Below, one piece after another: positions 16,738 to 53,464 of a DNA stretch of 64,000 nucleotides. This DNA is from Bacteroidota bacterium (GTDB lineage: Bacteria; Bacteroidota; Ignavibacteria; Kapaibacteriales; UBA2268): NCBI GenBank assembly GCA_004322215.1, contig SCSM01000040.1:1-64000 (forward strand), written 5' to 3'. The stretch's first letter is position 1. Each line of letters begins with the position of its first letter. The position numbers and the translations under genes were made by a program. The notes beneath the pieces were generated by a model, which saw nothing but the letters and a program-made list of their open reading frames with translations, did no database searches and was not told the DNA's origin.

Positions 16738-17517
16738 ATGAATTTTATAGTTTTTTTGAAAATGGTTCCTGACGTTATTGAAGAATTGAAAATTGCTGAT
16801 GATGGTAAGCAACTCGATAGTGACTGGATTAGGATGAAGCTGAATGAATGTGACGAAAATGCCGTTGAAGAAGCGATTATACTCAAAGAAAAATTCGGAG
16901 GAAAAGTTACTGCGGTTGCTTTAGATGCACCTGAATTAGACGATGCACTTTTCAATGCACTTGCAAAAGGAGCCGACAAAGCCGTCAAAATAATCGGGGA
17001 ATGGAAAGACGTTCATTCACCCGCTATAGCCGAAATCTTCGCAAAATACCTGCGTGACAACAACCTTATAGACAACCAGACTTTGATTCTTTCGGGTTCT
17101 CAGGCAATTGATGACATCGAAGGGGAACTTGTTTACTATCTGGGTGAATTATTGAATCTGCCTGCATTCGGAGTAATTACACATGTCGATTATGATTCGG
17201 GGCAAAACTCTGTTTCACTCGTAAAAGAATTTGCCGGTGGACTGCGTGGAGAATTTTCTTCCGGCTTGCCTGCTGTACTCGGTATCCAGGCATCAGAAAA
17301 TCCACCAAGATATATTCCTATAGCAAAAATCCGTGCAATTATGAAATCCGCTGCAATCGAAGAAGTGGTAATTCCCCCGGATGGTTTGCCTGCCGGAACA
17401 ACCATTGAAAAAATGTTCGAGCCGGAAACCACAGGGAAAGCTGAAATGCTCGATGGTTCAACAGACGAGATAATTGAAAAGTTAATTGGCATTTTCTCGG
17501 ACAAAGGAATTATTTAA
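16738..17517 (+). CDS. etfB: Electron transfer flavoprotein beta subunit
   Basis: A 259-residue EtfB-family protein. It has the N-terminal MNFIVFLKMVPD, an adenine-nucleotide-binding alpha/beta fold (NECDENAVEEAI; GKVTAVALDAP), the ILSGSQAIDD segment, and the C-terminal recognition-loop region near PPRYIPIAKIRAIMKSA. It pairs with EtfA, encoded 11 bp downstream. Together they carry electrons as FAD/AMP or FAD/FAD heterodimers. The neighbouring membrane Fe-S oxidoreductase indicates delivery to menaquinone. GGGGGAG precedes the ATG. Confidence 0.93.
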   Translation: MNFIVFLKMVPDVIEELKIADDGKQLDSDWIRMKLNECDENAVEEAIILKEKFGGKVTAVALDAPELDDALFNALAKGADKAVKIIGEWKDVHSPAIAEIFAKYLRDNNLIDNQTLILSGSQAIDDIEGELVYYLGELLNLPAFGVITHVDYDSGQNSVSLVKEFAGGLRGEFSSGLPAVLGIQASENPPRYIPIAKIRAIMKSAAIEEVVIPPDGLPAGTTIEKMFEPETTGKAEMLDGSTDEIIEKLIGIFSDKGII

Positions 17518-17528
17518 GGAGAACGGTT

Positions 17529-18500
17529 ATGAATAATAGTATTTTGATTTTAATCGAGCATCTTAAGGATGCAATAGCCGACATCAGTTTCGAGATGCTC
17601 GGCATCGGGAGAAAAATCGCCGATTCATTTAACGGTTCACTGCATGCGGTAGTTCTTGGCAAAGACATAAATAAATTTTTGCCCGAGCTTGGAATTGCGG
17701 ATTCGATTTTTGTCGCCGATGATGAAAAACTTGAAATGGCAAGTCCCGAAACAATTGCTGATATAATTAAAAGCATCATTGAAATCAAAGGTATTTCGAT
17801 TACGATTCTTGGTGGAACTAATACTGCGGCAGGTGTTGGTCCAATATTATCATCAAAGTTGAAATTACCTTATCTCAATTTTTGTAAAAATATTCGGGTC
17901 GAGGGCGATAATATTATCGTAACAAATCAGCTTTTCGGCGGTAAAATATTATCTGATGTGAAACTCGATGGAATGAAAGGGATAATTAGCGTTAATCCCG
18001 GTTCTTTCCCTTCCGATGCCGGAAAAGCAAGTAAGGTTGTGCCTGTCGTTGAAATTGATTTATCTCAAATAAAAATTAAAAATTATTTCAAAAAATATAT
18101 AGAGCCGGAAGCCGGAGATGTTGACATAACAAAAGAAAATGTGTTGGTCTCTGTCGGCAGAGGAATTGAAAACGCAGATAATCTCAGCTTAGCGGAAGAT
18201 TTGATTGGTGTTCTCGGGGGTGCTATCTCTGCATCGAGACCGGTGATTGACCAGGGCTGGCTTCCATTGAGCCGCCAGGTTGGTAAATCGGGAATGACAG
18301 TAAAACCGAAATTATACTTTGCACTTGGTATAAGCGGTGCACCGGAACACGTCGAAGGAATGAAGGATTCGGATTGCATTGTAGCAATCAACAAAGACCC
18401 TGCAGCACCGATTTTCAATGTTGCACATTACGGTGTATGCGGTGATTTACTTGAAATTGTTCCATCATTAACTGAAAAACTAAAAGCGAAAAAAGGATGA
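17529..18500 (+). CDS. etfA: Electron transfer flavoprotein alpha subunit
   Basis: A 323-residue EtfA. The C-terminal FAD-binding domain is intact: VSVGRGIENADNLSLAEDL, then ASRPVIDQGWLP, the conserved QVGKSGMTVKPKLYFALGISG, and VAINKDPAAPIF. The N-terminal half has the EtfA/B Rossmann-like fold. It forms a heterodimer with EtfB and probably docks to the membrane oxidoreductase encoded 100 bp downstream. GGAG is followed by the ATG, and the gene is cotranscribed with etfB. Confidence 0.95.
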   Translation: MNNSILILIEHLKDAIADISFEMLGIGRKIADSFNGSLHAVVLGKDINKFLPELGIADSIFVADDEKLEMASPETIADIIKSIIEIKGISITILGGTNTAAGVGPILSSKLKLPYLNFCKNIRVEGDNIIVTNQLFGGKILSDVKLDGMKGIISVNPGSFPSDAGKASKVVPVVEIDLSQIKIKNYFKKYIEPEAGDVDITKENVLVSVGRGIENADNLSLAEDLIGVLGGAISASRPVIDQGWLPLSRQVGKSGMTVKPKLYFALGISGAPEHVEGMKDSDCIVAINKDPAAPIFNVAHYGVCGDLLEIVPSLTEKLKAKKG

Positions 18501-18599
18501 AAATAATTCACAATTAATAATTAAAAAAATTGTGAGTCGAATTTAAAATTGATACTTGAAAATTTATTGAAAATTGAAAATTAAAAATTGAAAATTATT

Positions 18600-20573
18600 A
18601 TGGACCCGGTTGATGTTAATATTTTAGGAGTTCAGGGAGTTTATATTCTCTGGGTTTTGACTGCAGTATCAATGTTCTTTTTTGTAAGAAGAATTACAAA
18701 AATTATTAAAATACTAAACAGGGCAAGACCTGAAAACAGATTTGATAATTTCAAAGAACGCATCGTTAACTTTATATTATATGTATTGGGACAGAAGAAA
18801 TTGTTCGGCGAACGTACAATCGGTTTGCCGCACTTTTTATTCTTTTGGGGATTTGTCTTCTATGCAGGTTCTTTCTGGTGGAACCTGCTTAGGGGACTTA
18901 TTCCGGTGCTTCCGATTCCTTACTCAGATGAAGTAGGAATTATTACATTCGCTCTCGAAATAATGGGCGTTTTAGTTTTATTGTCTATTATTGTTGCAGT
19001 ACTAAGAAGAATATTCTTTCCTCCACAACATTTACAACAATCATTCGATGCAGTAATAATATTATCATTAATTACAATATTAATGGTTACTCTATTATTG
19101 GGACAGGGCTATAAAGGAACTATAGAAGCATCTGTGTGGAGTCCAATCGGAAGTATTATTGCATCGGGACTTTCAGTTTCAGAAAATACAGCGGTAGATA
19201 CATTCAAAGCTTTTTGGTGGATTCACATAATCTCAGTTTTGTTCTTTCTTGGTTATATCCCCTATTCAAAACACATGCACCTGCTTGCTTCACCTTTCAA
19301 CGTGTTATTCAGAAACAATTCACAGCCGGCAGATTTAACGATAAAATCGAATAGCGAAGATATTGGTTCAGGTGCTTCGAAATGGACAGAATTTACATGG
19401 AAAGATTTGCTCAACAGCTTTTCTTGTGCAGAGTGCGGAAGATGTGACCGCGCCTGCCCTGCTCAAAACTCAGGAGCTGTTCTTGCCCCACGTGTTATTC
19501 TTCATAAAATCAAAGAGCAGATGTATGAAACCGGCTTTAATAAAAACGGTAACGGAATACATGAAATATTCGAAGATAAGATTTCAAAAGAAGAATTATG
19601 GCAATGCACAACCTGCATGTCATGTATGCAGCAATGCCCGGTATTGAACGAACACCTTCCCGTAATTATTTCGATGAGACGGTTCTTAATCAACCAGGGT
19701 GAAGTTGAGCAAACAGTTCAGGATGTATTACAGAAAATAACACGATACGGAAATTCATTCGGTCAATCCGACAGAAACAGGCCAAAGTGGACAGCCGCTC
19801 TCGAACCGAAAATCAAAGATGCACGTAAGGAAGAAGTAGAATACCTGTGGCTGACAGGTGATTATGCTGCTTTTGATTCAAGATTGCAGAGCATCACCCA
19901 AAAAACCGCATACATCTTCCAAAAGTCGGGATTGGATTTCGGAATATTATATGAAGCAGAAAAAAATTCCGGAAACGATGTTCGCAGAATTGGCGAGGAA
20001 GGTCTGTTCGAAGTTTTGAGAGATAAAAACACTCAGCAAATTAAAAAATCCAAATTCAAAAAAATTATAACAACTGACCCGCACACATATAATACATTAA
20101 AAAATGAGTATAAGCTAAGTGATAACGGCGATGATGTGAGCATTCGGCATTATACCGAAGTGATAGATGAATTGATAAATGAAAAGAAAATAACATTTAA
20201 TAATAAATTAAATATAAAAGCAACTTATCACGACCCCTGCTATCTCGGCAGGTATAACGGAGTGTATGAACCACCGAGAAAAATATTGAAATCAATCGGA
20301 GTTACACTTGTCGAAATGCCCAGGAACAGGGCGAAGAGTTACTGCTGCGGTGCAGGTGGCGGAAGAATCTGGATGGAAGATAAGACTCCCGTAAAGGAAC
20401 GTCCCTCGGAAAGCAGGATTCGTGAAGCAGCAGCTTTAAAGGATGTTTCTCTTATGGTTGTTGCCTGTCCCAAAGATATTGTGATGTTCCAGGATGCGGT
20501 CAAAACAACGGGGAATGAAGGTAAACTCGAAATAAAAGATATTTCTGAATTGGTCTTTGAATCGATGAAATGA
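18600..20573 (+). CDS. Membrane ETF:menaquinone-type oxidoreductase (HdrD/GlpC-like Fe-S domains with NarI/DsrM-like cytochrome b domain)
   Basis: A 657-residue protein. The first ~240 residues carry about five or six transmembrane helices with histidines of a NarI/DsrM/HdrE-like cytochrome b (GLPHFLFF; WWIHIISV; SKHMHLL). Then come two [4Fe-4S] motifs (CAECGRCDRACP; CTTCMSCMQQCP) and two CCG-type domains. The first CCG domain has lost its cysteines (SGNDVRRIGEEG); the second is intact (HDPCYLGRYNG and CCGAGGG). This is the architecture of the DUF224/EMO proteins that link EtfAB to menaquinone in anaerobes. The ATG at 18600 is chosen over a TTG at 18588 lying in a low-complexity repeat. The etfBA genes immediately upstream support the assignment. 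Confidence 0.88.
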   Translation: MDPVDVNILGVQGVYILWVLTAVSMFFFVRRITKIIKILNRARPENRFDNFKERIVNFILYVLGQKKLFGERTIGLPHFLFFWGFVFYAGSFWWNLLRGLIPVLPIPYSDEVGIITFALEIMGVLVLLSIIVAVLRRIFFPPQHLQQSFDAVIILSLITILMVTLLLGQGYKGTIEASVWSPIGSIIASGLSVSENTAVDTFKAFWWIHIISVLFFLGYIPYSKHMHLLASPFNVLFRNNSQPADLTIKSNSEDIGSGASKWTEFTWKDLLNSFSCAECGRCDRACPAQNSGAVLAPRVILHKIKEQMYETGFNKNGNGIHEIFEDKISKEELWQCTTCMSCMQQCPVLNEHLPVIISMRRFLINQGEVEQTVQDVLQKITRYGNSFGQSDRNRPKWTAALEPKIKDARKEEVEYLWLTGDYAAFDSRLQSITQKTAYIFQKSGLDFGILYEAEKNSGNDVRRIGEEGLFEVLRDKNTQQIKKSKFKKIITTDPHTYNTLKNEYKLSDNGDDVSIRHYTEVIDELINEKKITFNNKLNIKATYHDPCYLGRYNGVYEPPRKILKSIGVTLVEMPRNRAKSYCCGAGGGRIWMEDKTPVKERPSESRIREAAALKDVSLMVVACPKDIVMFQDAVKTTGNEGKLEIKDISELVFESMK

Positions 20574-25518: not shown

Positions 25519-27042
25519 ATGGAAGCGAAAGTATCAAAAAAGTTCAATGAAGCTATGCAAAAAGCCGACGACTCATATATGAACAAGCGTAGAATTCTTA
25601 TTGACCCGATTACACGGCTCGAAGGCCACGGGAAAATTGACATCTTCCTCAACGACAAAGGTGATGTTGCAAAGGCATATTTCCAGGTGCCCGAACTGAG
25701 AGGATTTGAAGTGTTCAGCCGCGGAAGACCTGCCGAGGATATGCCTCAAATCACGAGCCGTATTTGCGGTGTCTGCCCGACTGCTCACCATATTGCTTCC
25801 ACTAAAGCTTTGGATGATTTATACAAAGTTGAACCAACTTTGACTGCAAAGCTAATCAGGGAATTGGTTTATAATATCTTTTTCCTCGAAGACCATGCAC
25901 TTCACGTTTATGTTCTTGGCGGTCCCGATTTCATTGTCGGTCCAGATGCTCCAAAGGAACTCAGGAATGTTGTCGGTGTCATTCAGAAAGTCGGAATAGA
26001 CATTGGAAAAAAGGTGATTTCGATGAGGCGTGAACTAAGGGAACTGATTACTTATCTCGGTGGAAAAGTAATCCATCCCGTTCTCGGTTTGCCGGGTGGT
26101 GTGGCGAAAGCGTTGCCTCCTGAAGAATTATCCGGATTTCAGAAAATTGCAAAAGACGGTCTCGACTTTGCTCTATTCACATTGCAGGTTTTCAAGGATA
26201 TTGTACTCAAGAACGAAGAATACGTCAAGCTGATAACTTCGGATGCCTATACACACCAAACTTACTATATGGGCTTGGTTGACGAGAATAATAAAGTAAA
26301 TTTCTATGACGGGCAAATTCGTGTCGTTGATACTATCGGCGCAGAGTGGGCAAAATTCCCTGTTCAGGATTATACTGATTACATTGCAGAACACGTAGAA
26401 CCCTGGAGCTATATAAAATTCAATTATCTTAAACCGCTGGGCTGGAAAGGATTCGTTGACGGACCTGACACGAGTATTTATTCTGTTGCTCCGCTTGCAC
26501 GCCTGAACGCCGCAGACGGAATGGCTACACCGCAAGCACAGAAAGCTTATGATGAAATGTACGCTACTTTAGGCGGGAAGCCGGTGCATCACACTCTTGC
26601 GAATCATTGGGCAAGAGTAGTGGAAATGGTATATGCAGGAGAAAGAATAAATGAAATTTTATCCATGCCGGAAATCACAAGCAAAGATATCAGGACTATA
26701 CCTGTAAATGTGCCGACAGTTGGAATCGGAGTTGTCGAAGCGCCGAGAGGTACATTAATTCATCATTACGAAACCGATGAAAAAGGATTAATCCAAAAAG
26801 CGAATTTAATCGTTGCGACTCAAAACAATTCGGCACGAATTGCAATGAGTGTGGAAAAGAGTGCAAAATCACTGATTCATAATTTCAATGTTAACGACGG
26901 ATTATTGAATATGATTGAAATGGCGTTCAGGGCTTATGACCCGTGCCATGGCTGCGCGACTCATTCCCTGCCGGGGACAATGCCATTAAAAATCTATATA
27001 TATGATAAGGACAGGAATTTGTTGGAGGAAATCAAACGTTAA
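25519..27042 (+). CDS. mvhA: [NiFe] hydrogenase large subunit, group 3c (MvhA-like)
   Basis: A 507-residue catalytic subunit. The L1 motif RICGVCPTAHH has Cys83 and Cys86. The C-terminal L2 motif DPCHGCATH has Cys476, Cys479 and His482. These four cysteines bind the NiFe active site. Twenty-five residues follow His482 and should be removed by the maturation protease, encoded at 36204-36668. No signal peptide is present. Group 3c enzymes oxidise H2 in the cytosol and feed HdrA. A low-complexity repeat precedes the gene, but AGGTAAG lies close to the ATG. A terminator-like hairpin follows the stop. Confidence 0.96.
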   Translation: MEAKVSKKFNEAMQKADDSYMNKRRILIDPITRLEGHGKIDIFLNDKGDVAKAYFQVPELRGFEVFSRGRPAEDMPQITSRICGVCPTAHHIASTKALDDLYKVEPTLTAKLIRELVYNIFFLEDHALHVYVLGGPDFIVGPDAPKELRNVVGVIQKVGIDIGKKVISMRRELRELITYLGGKVIHPVLGLPGGVAKALPPEELSGFQKIAKDGLDFALFTLQVFKDIVLKNEEYVKLITSDAYTHQTYYMGLVDENNKVNFYDGQIRVVDTIGAEWAKFPVQDYTDYIAEHVEPWSYIKFNYLKPLGWKGFVDGPDTSIYSVAPLARLNAADGMATPQAQKAYDEMYATLGGKPVHHTLANHWARVVEMVYAGERINEILSMPEITSKDIRTIPVNVPTVGIGVVEAPRGTLIHHYETDEKGLIQKANLIVATQNNSARIAMSVEKSAKSLIHNFNVNDGLLNMIEMAFRAYDPCHGCATHSLPGTMPLKIYIYDKDRNLLEEIKR

Positions 27043-27080: not shown

Positions 27081-27198
27081 TGAATTCAAAATCGAAATTT
27101 GGGATTGTTCATTGAAATATTATTTTATGAGGGATTAAAGTTAATTATGAATTGTTAATTGTGAATTATTAATTATTCACTTTTGGGAGGTGGTTGTT

Positions 27199-27636
27199 AT
27201 GAAAGTCAGTGAAATTTTAAAATCGAAGGGTCCTCACGTTTACAGCATCGGTGAAGACCGCATCGTAAGGGTTGCAATAGATATGATGCATAGGAATCAT
27301 ATCGGCTCGCTTGTCATATTGAATATCAGCGGCGAATTGACAGGAATTATTACCGAAAGGGATATACTCGAATTATGCGTTAAATATCCTGACAATTTCC
27401 AAAGCTTAATTATAAAAAATGTTATGTCAAAACAGACAATTATCGCTGAACCCAACGATGATATTGACTATATAGAAATGGTTATGACGAGTGAATTCAT
27501 CCGTCACGTACCTGTAGTCGAAAATCACAAACTGGTAGGGCTTGTGTCCATTGGCGATGTCGTCAAGGCACAAAGCAAGATTATTCAATATGAGAACAAG
27601 TACCTCCGTGACTACATAAACGGAGTACGTGGTTAA
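27199..27636 (+). CDS. Two-CBS-domain protein
   Basis: A 145-residue protein made of two CBS domains. The first covers about residues 5-60 (GEDRIVRVAIDMMHRNHIGSL, LTGIITERDIL) and the second about 70-130 (MSKQTIIAEPNDDIDYIEMVM, HKLVGLVSIGDVVKA). A short helical tail follows. CBS pairs bind adenine nucleotides and act as energy sensors. Its place between mvhA and the DsrC-like/hyp genes suggests regulation of the hydrogenase-Hdr system. GGGAGG at 27185-27190 fixes the ATG at 27199; a GTG at 27190 is less likely. Confidence 0.9.
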   Translation: MKVSEILKSKGPHVYSIGEDRIVRVAIDMMHRNHIGSLVILNISGELTGIITERDILELCVKYPDNFQSLIIKNVMSKQTIIAEPNDDIDYIEMVMTSEFIRHVPVVENHKLVGLVSIGDVVKAQSKIIQYENKYLRDYINGVRG

Positions 27637-27697: not shown

Positions 27698-28351
27698 TTA
27701 CTTAATTCTTAGTCCTGCAATTTTAACTGCACCTCTGTGGTAGCCGTCAGGGAACAATGCTTTCAGTTCATCGAGTGTGATATTGCAATCATCGCACAGT
27801 TGATAGATATTAGAAACCGATTGATTCCTGCTGAAATAATCACGAAGGTAATTAATAATTACCCAGTGTTTGTCGGTTAGAAGATTAGGCATCTTTAGTT
27901 CATCGGCTGTACTGATTGCAAATTCTTCGTCCCATTCTGTCCAGTCAACGAGAAAACCCTTTGCATTAACTCTGTACGATTTGGTTTCAACTTCAGATGG
28001 AACCGGCTGTTCTGTTTTAAGAGAATGTAAATTAAGATATCCTTTGTCATAACTAATTCCGGCTAATTTACAGGCACCCCTTTGGTAACCCATTGGAAAA
28101 AGAGTTCTGAATTCGCCGATTGTAAATTTAAAATGTTCCATTGTATCGTATGCTGTCGGGCAAGTGTTGTCTCTTTTGAAAACTTCCCGAATATAATTAA
28201 GCACTTTTTTGTGGTTCTCTGTCAGTCCTTGTGTAATCTCTAATTCGAGTGCCATTCCTTCTGCAAAATTTTCATCCCAGTCGTCAACATTAGCGAGGAA
28301 TCCGTACTGGTCAACCTGGTATTCCCTGTTATTAAATACTAACTTATCCAT
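27698..28351 (-). CDS. Tandem DsrC/TusE-family protein (two fused DsrC-like domains)
   Basis: A 217-residue protein made of two DsrC-like domains, at about 5-105 and 125-217. Both show the family signatures: the 'WDExFA' entry, the 'LTxxHxxxxxYxR' helix, then LFPMGYQRGACKLAG and LFPDGYHRGAVKIAG. Domain 1 keeps only the inner cysteine (Cys94); the penultimate-cysteine arm is absent (YDKGYLN). Domain 2 has valine at that site and ends before the arm. Other cysteines are Cys64, Cys186 and Cys189. DsrC proteins carry sulfur or present a thiol/disulfide to HdrB/DsrK-like enzymes, so its place inside an Hdr/hydrogenase locus is striking. A redox or regulatory role is my inference. GAAGGTGA lies upstream of the start. 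Confidence 0.88.
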   Translation of the reverse strand: MDKLVFNNREYQVDQYGFLANVDDWDENFAEGMALELEITQGLTENHKKVLNYIREVFKRDNTCPTAYDTMEHFKFTIGEFRTLFPMGYQRGACKLAGISYDKGYLNLHSLKTEQPVPSEVETKSYRVNAKGFLVDWTEWDEEFAISTADELKMPNLLTDKHWVIINYLRDYFSRNQSVSNIYQLCDDCNITLDELKALFPDGYHRGAVKIAGLRIK

Positions 28352-28540
28352 AAATTCACCTTCATTTTTTTAACTCTTAACTCCCTGAGAAATTCATAAA
28401 AATGCACATCTTGCGGTAAATCCTTGTGATGTTTTGAATAATATTTCATAATAATTTTTGAAATATAAATATTAAAAAAAATAAATTATCAAATTTTTGT
28501 TATTTTACATAATGTTCTAATAAAAAGTGTTGCTGATTGT

Positions 28541-28885
28541 ATGCACGAAGTTTCGATAGCACAGGAAATCATAGAAATCGTTAAGGATTATCTACCTGAC
28601 GGAAACGGCATTTCTGTTAAATCGGTCAAAGTTGATGTCGGTGATTTCAGCAATATCTTACCGGAAGCTCTCACTTTTGGTTTTGAAGTTTTAACTGACA
28701 ATTCCGGTATGAAAGGTGCCGAATTGATAATAAATAAAATTCCATTGACAGTGAATTGCATAAATTGCAATTATATATCAACACTTGACGAACCTCTTTT
28801 CTTTTGCAAAAAGTGTAAAAGTCCGAATGTTGAGATTCTCACAGGTACAGAATTAAAGGTAACCGAAATCGAGCTTAACGATTAA
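28541..28885 (+). CDS. hypA: Hydrogenase nickel-insertion protein HypA
   Basis: A 114-residue HypA. Its first residues MHE bind nickel through His2. The zinc-finger cysteines are Cys73/Cys76 and Cys89/Cys92. It acts with HypB to deliver nickel to the precursor of the hydrogenase large subunit. It opens the hyp operon (hypA, B, F, C, D, E) on the plus strand, 12 bp upstream of hypB and divergent from the tandem DsrC-like gene. Confidence 0.95.
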   Translation: MHEVSIAQEIIEIVKDYLPDGNGISVKSVKVDVGDFSNILPEALTFGFEVLTDNSGMKGAELIINKIPLTVNCINCNYISTLDEPLFFCKKCKSPNVEILTGTELKVTEIELND

Positions 28886-49960: not shown

Positions 49961-50404
49961 TTAATTCTTCATTCTTATGGCATCTTTGATTCTGTCGCAG
50001 GTTGCGTATTGCTTATAGACCTCACAACTTCGGCATTCTCTGCCCGAACAGCAGTTGTCTATGTGGTGGTAAGTCCAGCATGGATTATTATGTCCGTTGT
50101 ATGATTCGCATTTTTCCCTGTCTTCTTCCGAACAATTCACGATGTCCCAGCATGGAATTAGCGAGTAGATTGTTTTAATAGCAGGTATCGAAAATTTTTG
50201 TTGTGTAATGGCATTCCTGATACATTTTAATCTTTCAATATCAGTGTCCGAGTACAGTCTGTGAGCCGATTCCTTTTTGAAAGGTATCAGTAATCCCTCA
50301 TGTTCGTACATTCTCAATGTATGAACAGACACACCAAGCATCCTTGCCGCCGAGCTAATTGAGTACAGCGGTGTATCTTCATTTATTTTATTATCTGTTC
50401 CCAT
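49961..50404 (-). CDS. MerR-family regulator with cysteine-rich two-CW tail
   Basis: A 147-residue regulator. Residues about 10-75 are a MerR helix-turn-helix (YSISSAARMLGVSVHTLRMYE, then HRLYSDTDIERLKCIR). The C-terminal part holds nine cysteines (PCWDIVNC, KC, NPCWTY, DNCC, ECRSC, TC). The two Cys-Trp pairs match the 'two-CW' domain, which probably binds metal or an Fe-S cluster. It likely senses a redox, metal or sulfur signal. Its neighbours on the same strand are DsrE2-like, TusE-like, DUF1641 and SQR-like genes, so it may regulate them. The start is either ATG 50404 or GTG 50407. Confidence 0.85.
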   Translation of the reverse strand: MGTDNKINEDTPLYSISSAARMLGVSVHTLRMYEHEGLLIPFKKESAHRLYSDTDIERLKCIRNAITQQKFSIPAIKTIYSLIPCWDIVNCSEEDREKCESYNGHNNPCWTYHHIDNCCSGRECRSCEVYKQYATCDRIKDAIRMKN

Positions 50405-50602
50405 CACTCCTTATGAAATAATGCAATATAAAAATTGTTTGTTCAATTATTCACTATTCGTTTTTCACTATTCACTAAAAAAAGCCGGAATTGCCCCTAT
50501 CGTCATCTTGCTCCTTATCGCCATCATCTTAATTCCATTACTCATCATTCTAAATTATATCATTCATTTTAATTAGAGACAATCCACGGCTCTTCATACG
50601 AA

Positions 50603-51085
50603 TCAGGTAAAAATGATATTTGCTCCTGCAGACACTTCATAGAACTGTCCGACCGAAATAATATCATCCACCTCATCACAAAAATCAGATTTTGTCAAAT
50701 GAAACATGTCCACCGTTGCCTTACAGGCATAAATGTTGCATCCTGCATCATGTATCATAGTTAAAAATTCTCTCACCGGCGGAATGTCAATCTTCTCGAT
50801 TTCCTTCTTCATCATCGAAGTAGCAAAAGCGGACATACCCGGGATACTCCCCAATATTGTGGGTATATGCATCGCTGGATTTCCCACTGTTGCAACTTTC
50901 AGCTTATCCATCTTCTTGTTAACTATTGCTTCCATTCCGAAAAAAGTAAAAAACAAATTCGCTTCGATTCCCGCCATCCTCGCACCATTTGCCATTATCA
51001 ATCCGGGATATACTCCTTCGAGTGAACCATGAGAAACAATGATTGACACCTTCTCAATCGGTGGATAATTACTCGTGTTTTCCAT
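50603..51085 (-). CDS. DsrE2-like (DsrE/F/DrsH family) sulfur-relay protein
   Basis: A 160-residue protein of the DsrE/F/DrsH family (IIVSHGSLEGVYPGLIMANGA, then FFTFFGMEAI and a conserved IYACKATVDMF). Cys121 is in the usual sulfur-carrying position of DsrE2 proteins; Cys115 and Cys136 are additional. A hydrophobic central helix (IPGMSAFATSMM) is also typical of DsrE2. It passes persulfide to or from TusE/DsrC-type carriers. The single-cysteine TusE gene lies 70 bp upstream in the same strand. AGGAAAG precedes the ATG. Confidence 0.85.
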   Translation of the reverse strand: MENTSNYPPIEKVSIIVSHGSLEGVYPGLIMANGARMAGIEANLFFTFFGMEAIVNKKMDKLKVATVGNPAMHIPTILGSIPGMSAFATSMMKKEIEKIDIPPVREFLTMIHDAGCNIYACKATVDMFHLTKSDFCDEVDDIISVGQFYEVSAGANIIFT

Positions 51086-51153
51086 TATTATCTTTCCTAT
51101 ATTATTTTATCAATTATTTTTTATCATAAATGTCATGCCGAACAGTGACACTA

Positions 51154-51471
51154 TTAAATACACCCTGTTGGTTTTGGCAAACCCGCAACCTTTGCTGCTT
51201 TCTTTGCCGGACCTTTCGGAAAAAGTGAATACAATTCTTTTGTCTCGACACCACTCTCTTTTGTCAATTTCCTGATAGAAGGTGCATTGCCTTTTTCCAT
51301 ATACTCCTTACGCATGAAATTGATGACAAGCCAGTGCCTGTCTGTCAATTCCAGTATGCCTTCTTCTTTTGCCAGTTCGATTGCTACTTGTTCATTCCAA
51401 TCATCGCGGTTTTTCAGATGATTGTCTGTGTCAAATTCGAGCATCTTACCTAATATTTCTCTTGCTGCCAT
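51154..51471 (-). CDS. TusE/DsrC-like sulfur carrier with a single penultimate cysteine
   Basis: A 105-residue DsrC-family protein. It has the full C-terminal arm LPKPTGCI, with Cys104 penultimate. The inner cysteine of true DsrC is replaced by alanine (KGPAKKAAKVAG), so it is TusE-type rather than sulfite-reductase DsrC. Cys104 is its only cysteine and would carry a persulfide. The preceding AGGAG fixes ATG at 51471; an upstream ATG at 51492 would add seven residues. It sits between DUF1641 and DsrE2-like genes, fitting a sulfur relay from SQR. Confidence 0.9.
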   Translation of the reverse strand: MAAREILGKMLEFDTDNHLKNRDDWNEQVAIELAKEEGILELTDRHWLVINFMRKEYMEKGNAPSIRKLTKESGVETKELYSLFPKGPAKKAAKVAGLPKPTGCI

Positions 51472-51564
51472 TTTAAAACTCCTTTTAAACATTAATTATA
51501 TTTACTATTTTAATAACAATTCATAATTATTAATTGTGAATTCAATTTCATTTTTCATTTTTCA

Positions 51565-52233
51565 TTAATTCCTGCCCTCAGCCATCCCTTTTACGAGTTT
51601 AGTTACAAAGAGCAGTCCTTGCTTCATCTCAGGTTTATTAAGCTCTCTCAGCAAACCGAACAATGAGATTTTACCTGCTTCATCCCTGTCTATCGTTTTA
51701 TATATTTCCACTGCATTATTCACTGTCGCAAGCATTTCGGGTTGTGTCAGATTTTTAATCGTATTTAATATCATAACAATATTATCCCCGAGATTTTTCA
51801 CGTCCTGCGGCGAAAACGATGTTACAATTTTATCCAGGACATTAAACGCTTCCTTTGAAAATTGAAAATACCCCGCTCTGTCCATTTCATCGAATTTCAG
51901 GAGCAATGACTGAAACATCTCCTTAGAGATTACTTTTGCATCATCCACAAAATCCCTGAAACTCTCTATTTGCTCGAATGCATTCGATAAATTATTTGTA
52001 TTTCTCACAAGCTTTTTCAGAAGATGAAGAATGTCGCCTGTCTGCAAATGATTAGATAATTCTTCAAACTCATTCAAAGATGTCTGATAAACATCCTTTG
52101 CCACAATGAGCAAATCATCTTTAAGGTCTTCCATCTCCAACCGGTGCCTGCGTTGATATTCAAGCTCCTGCACAATGAAATCGAGCTTGTCATTGAGTGA
52201 ATCAATCCGGCTTTGTACTTCGGTGTCTGTCAT
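51565..52233 (-). CDS. DUF1641-family protein
   Basis: A 222-residue helical protein. The N-terminal half is coiled-coil-like (IDSLNDKLDFIVQELEYQRRHRL). The C-terminal signature (ISLFGLLRELNKPEMKQGLLFVTKLVKGM) is the DUF1641 motif. This family often accompanies SQR, formate dehydrogenase or DsrE-type genes and its function is not known. It starts 1 bp after the stop of the SQR-like gene, so translation is coupled. Confidence 0.85.
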   Translation of the reverse strand: MTDTEVQSRIDSLNDKLDFIVQELEYQRRHRLEMEDLKDDLLIVAKDVYQTSLNEFEELSNHLQTGDILHLLKKLVRNTNNLSNAFEQIESFRDFVDDAKVISKEMFQSLLLKFDEMDRAGYFQFSKEAFNVLDKIVTSFSPQDVKNLGDNIVMILNTIKNLTQPEMLATVNNAVEIYKTIDRDEAGKISLFGLLRELNKPEMKQGLLFVTKLVKGMAEGRN

Positions 52234-52234
52234 A

Positions 52235-53464
52235 TCAATACCTCTTTCCTGCCATTGTCATATTTGAAGTTACCGGCAATTCCTGTCCTCTCAAAAGCAA
52301 GTTCCAATACATCCAGCGGAACATAACCTTGCCGTAATGATTCATCTTCGTTTCCTGTAAAAGAGAAAATGGTCCAATTCCCGGCAATGGATATTTTCCT
52401 GGTAAAGGTTCCACATCGAAGTTGAAATCAATCAATAATCCTTTACCGAATCCTGATTCGATAAAGCAATTTGCGTGACCGTCGAACTTTGCCCTCATCG
52501 GTCTTTCTTCTACTGCATTAAGGAAATTATCATACAGAATTTCTGCTTCGAAATGAGCCACTGAGCCGGCTTTCGAACTTGTCAAATCAGTCGTGTCACC
52601 AATTACAAAAATGTTCGGAAAATTTTTTGAACGTAATGTGTCCTTATCTGTAGCAACATAGTTGAATTCATTCCCCATTCCACTTCTCTCGATTGCCGAA
52701 TCACCTTTATTGGTTGGAATTGTTACGAGCACATCGTAAGGAATTTCCTGCTCATCCCAGGATACGATAACCTTCTTTTCGTTATCAACTCTTGCAATTC
52801 CAAATTCTGTAGTCAACCGTATGTTCTTCTTTTCAAGAATATCACCCAAAATCCCGGATGCAATCGGCTTTGTGAAAGCACCTGGCAAAGGTGTAACAAA
52901 ATGTATGTCAACCTTATCCCTTATTCCCATGTTTGTAAAGTAAGCATCTGCAAGAAACAAAAACTCGAGTGGAGCTACCGGGCATTTAATAGGCATTTCA
53001 ACAATATTAAGTACCAGCTTTCCGCCTTCCCATGATTTGAAGAAATTCTGTAATGCACATGCCCCTTCGAGTGTATAAAAATCGAATTTGTCTTTGTGCC
53101 AGTTCCCGTCTATCAATCCTTCGGTTTCTTCGGGATGTATGTGTGTGCCTGTTGCGATTATCAAATAATCATAGCTGAGAATTTGATTGTTTTTCAGAAG
53201 AACTCTATTATTCCCGGCGTCGATTTTATCAATTTCTGCAATTACTACTTCAACACCTCTCGGATAAAAATCCCGTTTTGGTTTCATCACATCCTTAGAT
53301 GTATATATACCGAACGGAATAAAAAGAAATCCCGGCTGATAATAATGTGTCTCGCTTTTATCAACAATTGTGATATGCCATTTGCTTTGGTCAAGGGCTT
53401 CGTGCAGTTTATTGGCAATGATTGTGCCTGCTGTCCCGCCACCTAATATTAACAACTTTTTCAA
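52235..53464 (-). CDS. Sulfide:quinone oxidoreductase-like flavoprotein
   Basis: A 409-residue FAD-dependent oxidoreductase. It has the N-terminal ILGGGTAGTIIANKL dinucleotide motif, LIIATGTHI, the second FAD motif NIFVIGDTTDL, and the SQR-typical PIKCPVAPLEF. Three cysteines, Cys136, Cys161 and Cys333, are placed like those of the SQR active site. It probably oxidises sulfide to a persulfide or polysulfide and reduces menaquinone. The C-terminal region (FRWMYWNLLLRG) has an amphipathic helix for membrane docking. It is the first gene of the SQR-DUF1641-TusE-DsrE2 minus-strand set. Confidence 0.88.
   Translation of the reverse strand: MKKLLILGGGTAGTIIANKLHEALDQSKWHITIVDKSETHYYQPGFLFIPFGIYTSKDVMKPKRDFYPRGVEVVIAEIDKIDAGNNRVLLKNNQILSYDYLIIATGTHIHPEETEGLIDGNWHKDKFDFYTLEGACALQNFFKSWEGGKLVLNIVEMPIKCPVAPLEFLFLADAYFTNMGIRDKVDIHFVTPLPGAFTKPIASGILGDILEKKNIRLTTEFGIARVDNEKKVIVSWDEQEIPYDVLVTIPTNKGDSAIERSGMGNEFNYVATDKDTLRSKNFPNIFVIGDTTDLTSSKAGSVAHFEAEILYDNFLNAVEERPMRAKFDGHANCFIESGFGKGLLIDFNFDVEPLPGKYPLPGIGPFSLLQETKMNHYGKVMFRWMYWNLLLRGQELPVTSNMTMAGKRY

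Follow-up and report, generated by a model that had tools for sequence, protein, structure and literature searches.

An open reading frame of 217 amino acids lies on the minus strand at positions 27698..28351 of the window, the 64,000-nucleotide stretch of DNA that was analysed as a whole, and encodes a protein with two DsrC-like domains in tandem; the plus strand of this interval is full of stop codons. In order, the surrounding genes encode EtfBA, a CCG protein, HdrBC-like proteins, HdrA, MvhD, MvhG and an MvhA-like [NiFe] hydrogenase large subunit on the plus strand (25519..27042, from an NCBIfam match), followed by a two-CBS-domain protein, also on the plus strand (27190..27636, from Pfam and an orthologue search), the tandem gene itself and a divergent hypA-like gene on the plus strand (28541..28885, named from sequence). 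For the Etf, Hdr and Mvh genes, the highest-scoring NCBIfam models stay under the curated cut-offs, and the names of EtfB and the Hyp genes were assigned by eye. The initial annotation had placed the tandem gene between the Hdr-Mvh and hyp genes, a location that holds for the window and for two genomes with the same layout around it, G437 and G438, with the amendments that the CBS gene intervenes and that the tandem gene lies on the opposite strand; as it is transcribed against both neighbours, it is not part of their operon. The Hdr-Mvh genes follow those for EtfB, EtfA and a 661-residue CCG/4Fe-4S protein whose N-terminal region is membrane-like (16738-20573), an order kept in genomes G439, G411 and G369 and, as far as the available stretch reaches, in G160, where EtfB falls outside it; together, EtfBA and the CCG protein perhaps form an Etf-to-quinone link.

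The gene call rests on the open reading frame, two matches to the Pfam DsrC model (PF04358), six homologues and dN/dS. The Pfam model covers the whole protein in two stretches (E = 1.6e-40, 138 bits against a cut-off of 24.9), and each half is recognised on its own, residues 1-114 at 3.1e-19 (over 6-100) and residues 115-217 at 3.2e-20 (121-215 of the whole), with 70-73 bits apiece and thus far over the same cut-off. NCBIfam TIGR03342 also matches, with 114 bits against a cut-off of 53.5, so that the curated thresholds for DsrC superfamily membership are passed by both models and the annotated fusion of two DsrC-like domains is borne out. From the Pfam matches and an alignment of the six tandem proteins, domain 1 comprises residues 1-101 (28049..28351, minus strand) and domain 2 residues 122-217 (27701..27988, minus strand), joined by a linker of residues 102-121 (27989..28048, minus strand) that was delimited by the alignment, an AlphaFold2 model and a match by eye, and that starts with an arm-like segment. 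In phmmer searches of the PDB, both domains retrieve DsrC chains, namely 1ji8 for domain 1 (3.5e-16) and 1sau for domain 2 (1.8e-14), and all eight chains found by Foldseek with the tandem model at E <= 0.001 belong to the DsrC family. The model itself, built from the six homologues, has a mean pLDDT of 81.5, falling below 50 at residues 103-122, and a pTM of 0.47, a value too low for the arrangement of the two domains relative to each other to count as predicted. The six tandem copies are 215-222 residues long, as against about 105 residues for the single domain of DsrC proper, and five of them are acidic (pI 5.1-5.7), the sixth having a pI of 7.6.

The distribution of cysteines sets the tandem protein apart from its relatives. 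In the six-row alignment, Cys64 (codon 28160-28162, minus strand), Cys94 (28070-28072, minus strand), Tyr101 and Gly104 are invariant, and Cys94 falls in the column of the inner cysteine of DsrC (CysA) in all six domain 1 sequences, the equivalent position of domain 2 being valine in all six (Val209 in the window). The identification of Cys94 as a DsrC-type inner cysteine confined to domain 1 is therefore sound. The penultimate cysteine (CysB) is absent from both domains of all six tandem proteins and present in every one of 63 distinct single-domain relatives. This count was made with a profile from our own domain alignment over 114 sequences (113 loci and the window), which at E <= 1e-8 gave 70 distinct frames, namely the 63 single-domain proteins, the six tandem proteins and a shortened duplicate of the G437 tandem protein; it covers relatives with a locus sequence, and matches from the genome searches that lack one fall outside it. 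The loss of the arm is less complete than had been annotated for both domains. Domain 2 does terminate before the arm, at AGLR[IL], but domain 1 retains a segment of arm length together with its glycine, which runs on into the linker; by eye, the DsrC arm AGLPKPTGCV aligns without gaps on AGISYDKGYL, and the place of the penultimate cysteine is taken by tyrosine in five of the six (Tyr105, codon 28037-28039, minus strand) and by leucine in the L066 copy of G402. Likewise, both DsrC-type cysteines are missing from domain 2, but this domain is not wholly free of cysteine, since five of the six proteins have Cys186, outside the arm and at a place that is likewise cysteine in canonical DsrC (LCK), and the window protein has an additional Cys189. 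Domain 2 also carries the motif LFPDG[YF]HRGAVK in all six proteins.

These features can be set against the known classes. Canonical DsrC, a substrate of DsrAB with two arm cysteines, shares with the tandem protein its fold, its PF04358 and TIGR03342 membership, the inner cysteine (in domain 1) and its occurrence in dsrA-bearing genomes, but differs in being a single domain with a penultimate cysteine. TusE-type DsrC has the same fold and the opposite pattern, keeping the penultimate cysteine that all six tandem proteins lack and having no inner one. RspA-type DsrC-like proteins are a class that lacks both DsrC cysteines; domain 2 answers to this description, whereas domain 1 keeps its inner cysteine and the two domains are fused. 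Judged on its sequence, the tandem protein is thus a member of the DsrC superfamily that departs from DsrC in its missing penultimate cysteine and its two domains, and from TusE in its cysteines, in keeping with the annotated view that it fits neither as usually defined.

Further differences from canonical DsrC emerge from a comparison of the 12 tandem domains with 42 single-domain rows, which were kept by a motif filter from 45 hand-picked single-domain proteins (domain 1 numbering). Three positions are replaced in all 12 tandem domains, with Arg68 (38 of 42 single-domain rows) and Pro89 (42 of 42) becoming tyrosine or phenylalanine and Lys91 (40 of 42) becoming arginine, and two more are lost in all 12, namely Tyr82 (42 of 42) and Lys69 (35 of 42). 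At position 72, lysine is lost in ten of the 12 domains and the residue is non-basic in nine. The changed positions are probably on the surface, a location that was assumed rather than computed, and they argue that the tandem protein does not merely replace DsrC at its usual partners; it may no longer touch any DsrC partner at all.

The search of 54 genomes of the family with PF04358 returned six tandem copies in five genomes, all from uncultured bacteria: the window genome and its congeners G437 and G438, with one each, G398, also with one, and G402, with two. Neither the order (123 genomes) nor a class sample (391 genomes) yielded an additional tandem protein among the matches read, and a protein query against a phylum sample of 395 genomes, a sample outside which the other four tandem-bearing genomes lie, gave no second tandem genome. 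A contig scan across all phyla, for close relatives only, found one, and plasmids, phages and viral contigs gave no match. The weak PF04358 matches of the class sample, mostly frames of about 210-290 residues, were considered as further tandem proteins, and none of the 11 that were read is one: by eye, with the fusion by Pfam, eight are LexA-like, two are cysteine desulfurases that bear a DsrC-like segment and one is multihaem-like; a second weak match in G564 and partial matches in G540 and G697 lie outside these 11. A short DsrC-like protein of G160 (L113) was set aside too; its last residues are DRCM, and it is no tandem protein. The cysteine desulfurases (Aminotran_5), from two class genomes, carry their short DsrC-like segment at the N-terminus (L075:5157-6584 and L076:6912-8348), where it scores 24 bits with PF04358, just under the cut-off. 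In the literature searched, no title or abstract among the matches listed dealt with a tandem or fused DsrC, most subscription journals being beyond reach.

In a maximum likelihood tree built from 54 domain rows, the 12 tandem domains come together (100/99), as do the six second domains among them (99/97), with the caveat that there are few columns and several long branches, and that the program warned of possible false joins. The most likely history on this tree would be a single duplication, within a gene, before the genera split, in dsrA-bearing relatives. In the three members of the window's genus that carry the gene, the tandem coding sequences are 65% identical three ways. Synonymous sites are near saturation, but whole-gene dN/dS is 0.04-0.07 in two of the three pairs and that of domain 1 is 0.03-0.09 in all three; the third whole-gene pair and all three domain 2 pairs have saturated synonymous sites and hence no dN/dS. 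At amino-acid sites, it is the linker that evolves faster.

Much of what was annotated turned on the hydrogenase locus, with the protein proposed as the thiol partner or a regulator of the neighbouring Hdr-Mvh complex. Cys94 is conserved throughout and the tandem gene adjoins the complex in three of the genus's four genomes, so that the linkage to hdrA and mvhA is real for three of the six copies, and it can be said neither that the protein never lies next to hdr/mvh genes nor that its cysteine varies. All three copies, however, belong to one genus. The G398 copy is flanked by an MscS-like ORF and a small lipoprotein-like one, each on the same strand and close by (names by eye), with which it may form an operon, and the two G402 copies are among other unrelated ORFs, one of them behind a same-strand gene (names by eye). 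MvhA gave no match in G398 or G402 (the latter 89% complete), which is to say in two of the five tandem-bearing genomes. Conversely, four hdr-mvh loci have no tandem gene, those of G439, G160, G411 and G369, a count that leaves aside G403, whose MvhA is broken across contig ends. G439 is of the same genus as the window genome, yet its mvhA lies directly beside hypA with neither the CBS nor the tandem gene between, and the PF04358 search found no tandem match anywhere in its genome. Since G439 is closest to G437 in the identity of mvhA, hdrA, hypB and hypA (though not of hdrBC or mvhG), and since the canonical DsrC rows of these two genomes pair in the tree (99/87), loss of the gene in G439 is the simplest account. 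Given this distribution relative to MvhA and to the hdr-mvh loci, and a gene that runs against both neighbours outside their operon, the annotated role in the Hdr complex is weakened; we rejected it as the main reading and regard it as improbable. No better prospects attach to a unit of the tandem protein with the adjacent CBS protein, as a nucleotide-sensing pair inserted into the hydrogenase cluster. The close CBS orthologue (91-98% identity) occurs, among 12 genomes searched, only in the genus members with the tandem gene, the two being present together in three genomes and absent together in G439, but this amounts to one difference in one genus, and G398 and G402 hold only a CBS paralogue of about 50% identity, on contigs other than those of their tandem genes. 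That the gene is a decaying paralogue with no function of its own would suit its patchy occurrence, in five of 14 dsrA-bearing genomes, but is very improbable in view of its conservation: the low dN/dS ratios given above, the motifs invariant across genera and the two copies kept in G402.

A redox-sensing transcription factor, in which two helix-turn-helix-like DsrC domains form a covalent DNA-binding dimer with a Cys94/Cys64 switch, is a somewhat stronger contender, which we nonetheless hold to be rather unlikely. DsrC of A. vinosum binds DNA, and the tandem gene has no conserved operon partner. Five of the six tandem proteins weakly match LexA_DNA_bind (best 5.6e-4), and Foldseek pairs the tandem model with LexA (3k2z; E 0.27, probability 0.97). 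The DsrC model in its turn picks up LexA-like genes of class members (L074, L077-L082 and L084), with a best E of 3e-7 and a score over the cut-off in one genome, matches that we read as a sign of a shared winged-helix core. The resemblance to the LexA DNA-binding domain, a winged-helix-like stretch with weak similarity in sequence and fold, is general, however, six of ten single-domain DsrC proteins matching as well, and because ordinary DsrC shows the same we did not count it as evidence for DNA binding. What distinguishes the tandem domains within this stretch is that its basic residues are changed, at positions 68 and 69 in all 12 and at 72 to a non-basic residue in nine, and the acidity of five of the six proteins likewise speaks against a DNA-binding role. 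Between the tandem gene and hypA lies a 31-bp block (28483..28513) that is identical in the window genome, G437 and G438 despite the 65% three-way identity of the adjacent tandem coding sequence, with one match per genome at up to three mismatches, and that was not recovered from G439, a genome with no tandem gene. Neither is it found in G398 or G402, and its 19-base core, sought upstream of their three copies, was equalled in 30, 19 and 200 of 200 shuffles; an operator common to the family was thus discarded.

Where the hydrogenase genes fail as a guide, those of the dsr pathway do better. dsrA, a sulfite-reductase gene, scores over its cut-off in 14 of the 54 family genomes, including all five with a tandem protein, which is found in none of the 40 genomes without dsrA (Fisher p = 6e-4, uncorrected for kinship). 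The corresponding test against MvhA, which is matched in eight family genomes, contrasts three of these eight with two of the 46 others and gives p = 0.019, likewise uncorrected and due to a single genus. In its distribution the tandem protein follows dsr rather than Hdr-Mvh, and the dsr link is the stronger. As nine of the 14 dsrA-bearing genomes have no tandem protein, it must be dispensable for the pathway. All five tandem-bearing genomes also carry a canonical two-cysteine DsrC, and in all five the tandem gene lies on a contig other than those of dsrA and canonical dsrC. DsrD, sought as a pointer to the direction of the dsr pathway, was found in none of six, in a search in which no control matched either. 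Dsr-bearing Kapabacteria are described in PMC10591310 and PMC6338057, the former assigning them to family UBA2268 and reporting DsrD. Another sulfur cluster of the window occupies the minus strand at 50603-53464, with a DsrE2-like protein, a TusE-type DsrC that ends in PKPTGCI (51154-51492), a DUF1641 protein and a Pyr_redox_2 flavoprotein (SQR-like by eye), and a MerR regulator lies downstream of it (49961-50407).

According to PMC3397948, the penultimate cysteine is strictly conserved in DsrC, sulfur binds to it alone in the A. vinosum protein, and only organisms with DsrAB have the inner cysteine. As the sulfur-carrying residue is in neither domain, the tandem protein probably does not carry sulfur in the manner of DsrC, and its sequence would best suit an adaptor or a regulator in which Cys94 is reactive. 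We therefore favour, tentatively and with a probability of about 0.4, a neofunctionalised, dsr-associated paralogue of DsrC that serves the DsrC cycle as an adaptor or regulator rather than as a sulfur carrier, and that is not tied to a conserved operon. In such a scheme the protein would behave as an asymmetric pseudo-dimer whose two domains are covalently joined. Domain 2 could dock on a protein of the dsr pathway through its invariant LFPDG[YF]HRGAVK motif, and the thiol of Cys94 in domain 1 would resolve or sense a persulfide, trisulfide or disulfide on a different protein, for which canonical DsrC is the likeliest candidate. A bolder version, which we think doubtful, is that the tandem proteins are a distinct class of DsrC whose Cys94 acts in trans, either to resolve a persulfide or trisulfide on canonical DsrC or to read the state of that protein; if this were true, the CysA/CysB chemistry of one DsrC arm would be split over two proteins.

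Dissimilatory sulfur metabolism has in DsrC a central carrier of sulfur, whose chemistry depends on the penultimate cysteine. With tyrosine in place of this residue, the inner cysteine kept, a second copy attached that has neither DsrC-type cysteine, and a normal DsrC alongside, the tandem protein is a natural separation-of-function variant and a reagent for testing the inner cysteine alone. Should it bind DsrC or the partners of DsrC, it would reveal the way in which the DsrC cycle is regulated.
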